From positions 1-23,320 of IMG/VR virus record IMGVR_UViG_3300050821_003488: 23,320 bases of DNA; one strand, written 5' to 3'. The DNA comes from a virus. Within the stretch, counting starts at the first letter, position 1, and each line of letters begins with the position of its first letter. The position numbers were made by a program, and so were the translations under genes. A model generated the notes under the pieces. It had not been told where the DNA came from and ran no database searches. It saw only the letters and a list, made by a program, of their open reading frames with translations. This document shows, piece after piece, positions 679 to 2,247 of this stretch.

Positions 679-906
679 ATGCGACGCGCTGATCGGGCGA
701 ACACTCCGCGTCGTGGTCTTGATCGCGACGATGCTGCGCTGTTCGTGGGCTTCTCCCGGCGGCTGTTTGATCAAATGGTCAACGACGGCCGGATGCCAAA
801 GCCCATCGAGCAGGACGGCGAGGAAGTGTTTGACCTCGTGAAGCTCGACAAAGCGTTCAACCGGATGAGCGGAGGTGGTCACAACGACGATTGGAGCAAT
901 CTATGA
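679..906 (+). CDS. Small helix-turn-helix DNA-binding protein, candidate excisionase/regulator
   Basis: A 75-residue protein with the pattern of AlpA/excisionase-type winged helix-turn-helix proteins: LDRDDAALFVGFSRRLFDQM (residues 14-33) would be the HTH, followed by VNDGRMPKPIEQDGEEVFDLVKL, which reads as the wing and the last helix. Proteins of this type commonly sit immediately before phage integrases and act as recombination directionality factors or regulators. Its TGA overlaps the integrase ATG (ATGA at 903-906), so the two are co-translated. No clear ribosome site precedes ATG 679, so the messenger may have a very short leader. The excisionase role rests on context plus fold, not on a specific motif. 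Confidence 0.65.
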   Translation: MRRADRANTPRRGLDRDDAALFVGFSRRLFDQMVNDGRMPKPIEQDGEEVFDLVKLDKAFNRMSGGGHNDDWSNL

Positions 907-2099
907 GAAGGACCTACCCAAGCGACCCGCGCTGGCCGTGCCTGCGATGGGACAGCGACCGGCGCGGCAACCTGCGGTGCTACTACCGCAACCTGGCCAA
1001 GCCGGGATCGAAGCAGGAGCGGCTGCGCGCGCCGTTCGGCTCGGCCGCGTTCGCCGCCGAATACGAGGCTGCGGATCGCGCTGGTGCCGTTCCGCCCAAG
1101 CGTGGCGACGCGCGCCCAGGCGACAGCACGTCGCTGAATTACATGCTCGACTGCTATTACCGCAGCTCGGCATGGACGGACGACTTGAGCGAGGCGACGC
1201 GCAGCCTGCGCCGGCCGATCCTCGACAAGATGTGCGCGCGGCTCGACAAAGCCGGGCGACGCCTGGGCGTGCAGGGTTACGCCACGTTGAGCCGCGGCCG
1301 GATCAAGGTCCTGCGCGACTATCTGAAAGCGACGCCCACCATGGCCAACGAGTTTGTGAAGGCGTTGAGCCGCGCTTTCGACTACGCCATCGAGCACGAC
1401 ATGCCGGGGCTCAAGGACGCGCTCAATCCCTGCCTGGGCATCAAGCCACTGGCCCGCGAGAACACCGACGGCCACCACCAGTGGACGCTCGACAACGTGC
1501 ACCACTACATGGACAGCTATCCGCTCGCGAAGTTTCGCCGCGAGCACACGGCGATGGCGGTGCTGCTCTACACCGGCGCGCGCCGCTCAGACGCAGTCCT
1601 GTTCAACGACGACATGGTGCTCGACGGCATCGAGGGCGGGAAGGTGCTGCACTACGTGCCGATCAAAGGCCGCAAGCGCCGCAAGGCCAAGGGCAAGCCG
1701 CCGACGATGGTGCAAATCCCGATCCTGCCGCCGCTGCAGGCCGTGCTCGACGCGCGGCCGCCAGGGCAGAAGCATTGGCTCGTGTCCTACTTCGGCAAGC
1801 CGTGGGCACGTCGCAGTTCGCTCACCGACAACATGCGCGCGTGGTGCCGCGAGATCGGCCTGAACGATGAGGGCGCCGACGAGCGCTGCACGCCGCACGG
1901 CCTGCGCAAAGCGGCAGCCGCGTTCGCCGTCGAGAACGGCGCGAGCACGCGCGACCTCATGGCGATCTTCGGCTGGGAGACCGAGCGCATGGCGGCGTTC
2001 TACTCGGAGGGCTTCGAGCGGGCGCAGGTCGCGTCACGGTCCATGCACACGATGCGCCTGCCCATCCGGGGCGCGCAGCCAATCAAAAAGCGGGGCTAA
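903..2099 (+). CDS. int: Tyrosine-type site-specific integrase
   Basis: This 398-residue protein is a phage tyrosine recombinase that would join attP to a host attB. The catalytic set is visible in the C-terminal half: Arg 227 in TGARRSD, His 332 and Arg 335 in HGLRK, Trp 358 (in the His/Trp position) in IFGWETE, and the nucleophile Tyr 367 in AAFYSE. A basic patch RKRRKAKGK (about 257-265) precedes the active-site segments. The N-terminal 180 residues fit arm-binding plus SAM-like core-binding domains. I prefer ATG 903, which overlaps the upstream stop and has GGAG six bases ahead, over TTG 891. Length is normal for the family. Its 3' end faces a cluster of inverted repeats that may be its own attachment region. 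Confidence 0.95.
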   Translation: MRRTYPSDPRWPCLRWDSDRRGNLRCYYRNLAKPGSKQERLRAPFGSAAFAAEYEAADRAGAVPPKRGDARPGDSTSLNYMLDCYYRSSAWTDDLSEATRSLRRPILDKMCARLDKAGRRLGVQGYATLSRGRIKVLRDYLKATPTMANEFVKALSRAFDYAIEHDMPGLKDALNPCLGIKPLARENTDGHHQWTLDNVHHYMDSYPLAKFRREHTAMAVLLYTGARRSDAVLFNDDMVLDGIEGGKVLHYVPIKGRKRRKAKGKPPTMVQIPILPPLQAVLDARPPGQKHWLVSYFGKPWARRSSLTDNMRAWCREIGLNDEGADERCTPHGLRKAAAAFAVENGASTRDLMAIFGWETERMAAFYSEGFERAQVASRSMHTMRLPIRGAQPIKKRG

Positions 2100-2247
2100 T
2101 CCCACTCTCAGTCCCACCCATAGTGGGACTTCAAAAAACACAATGTTTATCGCGCTTTACAACGTCCGTTCTTTCGTTGCAGACAGCGCGGTAATCAACG
2201 TTTCCAACAACTTAACCCCTAGTGGGACTGAGATTTTCAGTCCCACT
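2100..2247 (+). repeat. Cluster of TCCCAC/GTGGGA repeats forming two hairpins; candidate attP arm sites
   Basis: Directly after the integrase stop are five copies of a TCCCAC-type motif: TCCCACT at 2100, and two inverted-repeat pairs. Pair 1 is AGTCCCAC (2110-2117) with GTGGGACT (2123-2130), loop of 5. Pair 2 is AGTGGGACTGA (2221-2231) with TCAGTCCCACT (2237-2247), a perfect 11-base stem with loop GATTT. The two clusters flank about 90 bases of AT-richer DNA (2131-2219) and share 10-base direct repeats (TCAGTCCCAC and TAGTGGGACT). Lambda-type attP sites have arm-binding sites on both sides of a core, next to int. No T-tract follows the hairpins on the plus strand, so a terminator is less likely. 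The repeats are certain; the att role is inference. From 2248 to 2350 I see no gene. Confidence 0.5.

Follow-up and report, generated by a model that had tools for sequence, protein, structure and literature searches.

Repeats directly downstream of a tyrosine integrase gene as the probable attachment site (attP) of a tailed phage

What is the function of the cluster of short repeats that directly follows the integrase gene (int) in the IMG/VR virus record IMGVR_UViG_3300050821_003488? The stretch of DNA analyzed here (positions 1 to 23,320 of the record; hereinafter referred to as the window) appeared from its gene content to be part of a tailed phage genome. At its left, the plus strand encodes a tyrosine integrase and, ahead of it, a small regulator; a tape measure, tail fibre J, an M15 endolysin, and other tail genes lie on the minus strand, with the portal and major head protein encoded at the right end. 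The window contained no tRNA genes, its first 4 kb showed no DNA similarity to the GenBank phage collection, and a search with the portal protein yielded one relative. The initial annotation, which was made from the letters alone, had regarded the repeats as a candidate attP, with integrase arm sites arranged around a core.

All five TCCCAC/GTGGGA copies and both perfect hairpins beside int described there were recovered (Table 1), and they exceeded chance: five was the maximum number of copies per 148 bases in the window, and more than four were never reached in 1,000 dinucleotide shuffles of the window. AGTGGGACT occurred three times in the whole window, all within the cluster at 2100-2247 (0.08 expected). 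As the last base of the int stop codon is 2099, the first TCCCAC copy abuts int, in line with the location immediately downstream that had been claimed; this copy, ATCCCAC, is one base off the GTCCCAC consensus of relatives. The two clusters shared a 10-base direct repeat, as had been noticed, and a longer imperfect one, and arm sites were repeated on both sides of the predicted core. The approximately 90 bases between the clusters were indeed AT-richer, the G+C content of 2131-2219 being 44% (65% in the window), which ranks among the lowest 0.1% for stretches of 89 bases.

Table 1. Coordinates of the attP region and adjacent genes in the window
Feature	Position	Strand	Details	Basis or context
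Small transcriptional-regulator-like protein, directly upstream of int	679..906	+		PHROG 25900 transcriptional regulator, 2.8e-11
Tyrosine integrase (int)	903..2099	+	398 aa from ATG 903 (longer starts possible)	Pfam Phage_integrase 1.4e-8; PHROG integrase
int-side arm cluster	2099..2130		ATCCCAC 2099-2105 (<), GTCCCAC 2111-2117 (<), GTGGGAC 2123-2129 (>)	Counterpart pair in 26 lysogens at fixed tRNA distance
TCCCAC/GTGGGA copies (n = 5)	2100-2105, 2112-2117, 2123-2128, 2222-2227, 2241-2246	-, -, +, +, -		
Direct repeat TCAGTCCCAC	2108-2117 and 2237-2246			
Perfect hairpin 1	2110-2117/2123-2130		8-bp stem, loop of 5	
Direct repeat ACCCNTAGTGGGACT	2116-2130 and 2215-2229		14 of 15 bases matching	
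Predicted core with crossover	2160..2192			Family spacing and inverted symmetry
Weak IHF-like element TTCCAACAACTTA	2202..2214	+	2 mismatches to WATCAANNNNTTR	20 bp before far GTGGGAC
Perfect hairpin 2	2221-2231/2237-2247		11-bp stem, loop of 5	
Far arm cluster	2222..2246		GTGGGAC 2222-2228 (>), GTCCCAC 2240-2246 (<)	Counterpart pair at other prophage end

The integrase comprised an N-terminal arm-binding fold (approximately residues 14-61) followed by core-binding and catalytic domains. In the AlphaFold model, strands at residues 14-18, 24-28, and 39-41 and a helix at 48-61 preceded a linker and two recombinase domains. The arm-binding fold of arm-site integrases consists of three strands and one helix (PMC8138268), and the modelled N-terminal fold of the window integrase is of this kind. 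The family profile aligned to residues 72-343 of lambda Int, with about 70 residues preceding it in both proteins. The product of the gene directly upstream of int would be a candidate directionality factor. Upstream of these two genes, a small protein (315-602) was encoded that contained only an NrdR-like zinc ribbon, corresponding to the first 43 of 147 NrdR positions.

Profile searches for homologous integrases gave 80 bacterial and 80 viral loci, nearly all from Alphaproteobacteria where the organism was named. From these, 38 lysogens were compared in which int is followed by a tRNA gene of opposite orientation; their integrases were about 35% identical to that of the window. In 26 of the 38, a GTCCCAC...GTGGGAC pair adjoined int, and the distance between TGGGAC and the 3' end of the attB tRNA was 52.1 ± 0.9 bp. 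Most of the other lysogens had a different inverted repeat, such as GGTGCAACAC, GTGATAAC, GGTTGGACA, GTGCGACA, or GGTGCGGG, whose right arm was again 52-55 bp from the tRNA. The tRNA-to-repeat distance of 52-55 bp was retained at the loci with other arm motifs (L016, L040, L049, L052, L062, L077, L092), so the arm sequence changes while the geometry stays. In several relatives (L007, L009, L050, L054, and others) the arm pair lay inside the 3' end of the int frame, and thus the arm sites also encode the last integrase residues.

At the other prophage end, an outward pair (GTGGGAC N36-46 GTCCCAC) was detected by pattern search in 20 of 30 lysogen genomes, compared with 8 for a reversed control pattern. 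In 16 of these 20, the tRNA 3' end recurs over 15-22 bp at a point 36-40 bp upstream of the pair, which gives the core direct repeat at that end of the prophage (core copies of 12-22 bp). In the lysogens of these 16 relatives, therefore, each prophage end had its own share of the arm sites. Free phage contigs, by comparison, carried both halves in one piece, with the GTGGGAC sites 105-107 bp apart (108 bp in L093, the nearest relative). The proposal of an attP with arm sites around a core is therefore supported by lysogens and free phages of relatives alike. A crossover point elsewhere was looked for in the relatives' lysogens and was not found, the distance to the tRNA being constant (52 bp). 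The L060 genome also harbored a second, separate GTGGGAC pair beside a tRNA-like core (L295; G793:C1:1064178-1064234), which suggests a further element of the family in that genome.

The window deviated from this geometry in that its arm pairs were tighter, spaced at 12 and 18 bp where 28-29 and 48-49 bp are usual in the family, and its GTGGGAC-to-GTGGGAC spacing of 99 bp was 6-8 bp short of the family value. When the family spacing was applied from both sides (TGGGAC at 2124 plus 52; GTGGGAC at 2222 minus 38), the core was placed at 2168-2192 (GTTCTTTCGTTGCAGACAGCGCGGT), of which 2176-2184 was common to both rules; the crossover is predicted to lie at about 2168-2192. The inverted pair CAACG (2160-2164) and CGTTG (2175-2179), nested in TATCGCGCT/AGCGCGGTA and centered near 2170, may mark the core-type sites (symmetry range 2160-2180), in which case the crossover would be a few bases further left. 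Unlike the core of most relatives, that of the window is not recognisable as a tRNA end: no tRNA or other RNA family was matched in the region (Rfam), and it lacked the TGG...-type start of tRNA cores. By inspection, L212, L236, and L240 likewise had no recognisable tRNA core. Several relatives had good IHF-like matches (AATCAATGACTTA and similar) before the far arm, at the same place as the weak element in the window.

The two hairpins could also be read as transcription terminators that end the transcripts of int and neighbouring genes, given that their stems are perfect, with loops of five bases, that they come straight after the int stop codon, and that RNA folding is predicted to be strong (z -6.0). 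However, no T-tract was found on either strand, so the initial annotation was right that a T-tract does not explain the repeats, and the two arms were, in most relatives, separated by at least 21 bases, too far for a short hairpin, and sometimes inside the int frame. The fixed distance in relatives was to the crossover and not to the stop codon; a role of the repeats as terminators was looked for and was not found, and this reading is considered extremely improbable. On the integrase tree, the GTGGGAC label required 16 changes compared with 30 for shuffled labels (none of 500 was as low). The tree was a quick one, near-copies make the clustering look stronger, and the automatic rule missed a small number of labels (L048 was scored 'other' although it has the pair). 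This clustering, together with other inverted repeats at the same distance, indicates that the repeats are integrase arm sites and not terminators. Alternatively, they might be operators bound by a repressor or by the small, possibly excisionase-type regulator whose gene precedes int. A dimeric regulator would fit sites that recur in both orientations, and excisionases such as RdfS bind attP arms (PMC11963761). Yet in lysogens the recombination point lies between the sites, which come to stand at opposite prophage ends, and the motif tracks the integrase phylogeny, a pattern that a regulator gene linked to int could also produce. Operators in place of integrase arms are thus held to be very improbable; repressor or excisionase binding could be an overlapping role, and the flanking of the crossover and the co-variation with int favour the integrase.

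The nested inverted symmetry of the core would be compatible with a site at which the integrase resolves multimers of a plasmid-like prophage instead of integrating it into the chromosome, and no host attB was found in approximately 780 genomes. Against this, relatives of the same architecture were integrated in tRNA genes, and no plasmid replication or partition gene was present among the window genes scanned, which were part of the ORFs of a contig that is itself a fragment; we give multimer resolution very little chance. The integrase arm sites of an attP thus remain the preferred reading, and they were identified by layout and integrase together and not by the motif alone, because GTGGGAC arrays retrieved from unrelated phage DNA by a pattern search for tight spacing of the far pair had no homologous integrase beside them among the matches listed. 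Dense GTGGGACA/TGTCCCAC arrays were seen in the unrelated phage contigs L248, L253, L257, L265-L267, and similar ones.

The initial annotation had suggested a search for the segment 2131-2219 and for its junctions with a host tRNA or gene. Arm-flanked tRNA junctions were present in lysogens of relatives, whereas the segment itself, used as the attB query, matched the approximately 780 genomes at chance level. The 397 Hyphomicrobiales genomes gave 4 matches at E<=0.02 and the 385 Alphaproteobacteria genomes gave 8; as about 8 are expected per search, these numbers are at chance level, and attB was not found. The bases 2178-2197 were identical (20/20) to a stretch of glnE in two related Hyphomicrobiales genomes (L174:1501-1524, L173:1501-1524). 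This match lies inside the gene and within the predicted core region, with about 0.15 such matches expected by chance; it is probably a chance match and is taken as a weak lead only. The core of L093 had no match in 387 genomes, and its attB was not found there. Searches of two families for closer lysogens by integrase gave identities of at most about 40%, and a direct search with the window and L093 integrases found only L093. That the window phage and L093 form a branch with compressed arm pairs and a non-tRNA target, possibly a conserved protein-coding gene such as glnE, is held to be unlikely.

Lambda encodes a heterobivalent tyrosine integrase, and its attP has five arm-type sites flanking the core, with bending-protein sites between them (PMC4880445). 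The window shares the five arm sites around a core and the tyrosine integrase with lambda, whereas the lambda attP is about 240 bp long with other arm and core sequences, and in the window the inverted GTGGGAC pairs are packed into about 150 bp, the whole site directly following int. The attP of ICEMlSym(R7A), which is recognized by the rhizobial tyrosine integrase IntS, also has five P/arm sites, all of them required for efficient integration (PMC11963761), but its arm consensus is TGKTGGTATC and its attP comprises 283 bp. This element integrates in a phe-tRNA gene, according to a reference title within the same paper (PMC11963761). The same gene order is seen in Sinorhizobium phage phi2LM21, a member of the family known from the literature, for which an attachment site in tRNA-Phe is annotated directly after int (PMC5537653). 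In this phage and in the alphaproteobacterial prophages compared here, as in the window, a homologous integrase has a regulator directly upstream (an AlpA-like gene in phi2LM21, in the same position), an inverted arm pair after int, and the core close behind; in contrast, their core is a tRNA 3' end and the pair spacing is wider, and the phi2LM21 arm motif is GTCCAGC/TGGACG. L093 (IMGVR_UViG_3300047160_004077) has an integrase 50-53% identical to that of the window, followed by ATCCCAC, GTCCCAC, GTGGGCC, GTCCCAC, a middle stretch, and then GTGGGAT...GTCCCAC. The order of arm sites, the middle stretch starting AAAAAACAC...GTTTA, and the symmetric non-tRNA core are as in the window, while the core sequence differs and several arm copies have one mismatch. 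In the open-access papers searched, no description of GTCCCAC arm sites was found.

Taken together, 2099-2247 is very probably the intact attP of this phage. Because dozens of related prophages have these repeats at a constant distance from the crossover, the site is of an ordinary kind, namely the attP of an arm-binding (lambda-type) tyrosine integrase, although its arm spacing is unusually tight. The N-terminal domain of the integrase would bind the five GTGGGAC-type arm sites, and its other domains would bind the inverted core sites around 2160-2192. A DNA-bending protein, presumably IHF-like, may fold the arms onto the core, and strand exchange would take place there, over a predicted overlap, with a host attB. 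Upon integration, the int-side cluster would stay beside int and the far cluster would move to the other prophage end. The positions of arms and core and both junctions were observed in relatives; because no lysogen of a close relative occurred in the collections searched, the crossover base and attB of the window phage are given as predictions only. Since both arm sets and the core are together in the phage DNA, the contig appears to derive from unintegrated (excised, replicating, or packaged) phage.

The arrangement characterizes a large alphaproteobacterial integrase family with a varying arm motif: an inverted arm repeat at the int end, 52 bp, the core, 38 bp, and a second arm pair. With this spacing rule, attP and the ends of prophages can be located, and it is of use in distinguishing integrated phage DNA from free phage DNA in metagenomes; in the case of the window phage, it gives a specific 25-base prediction of the crossover. 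Moreover, the matched integrase/arm pairs of the relatives provide a set for working out the specificity of the N-terminal domain.
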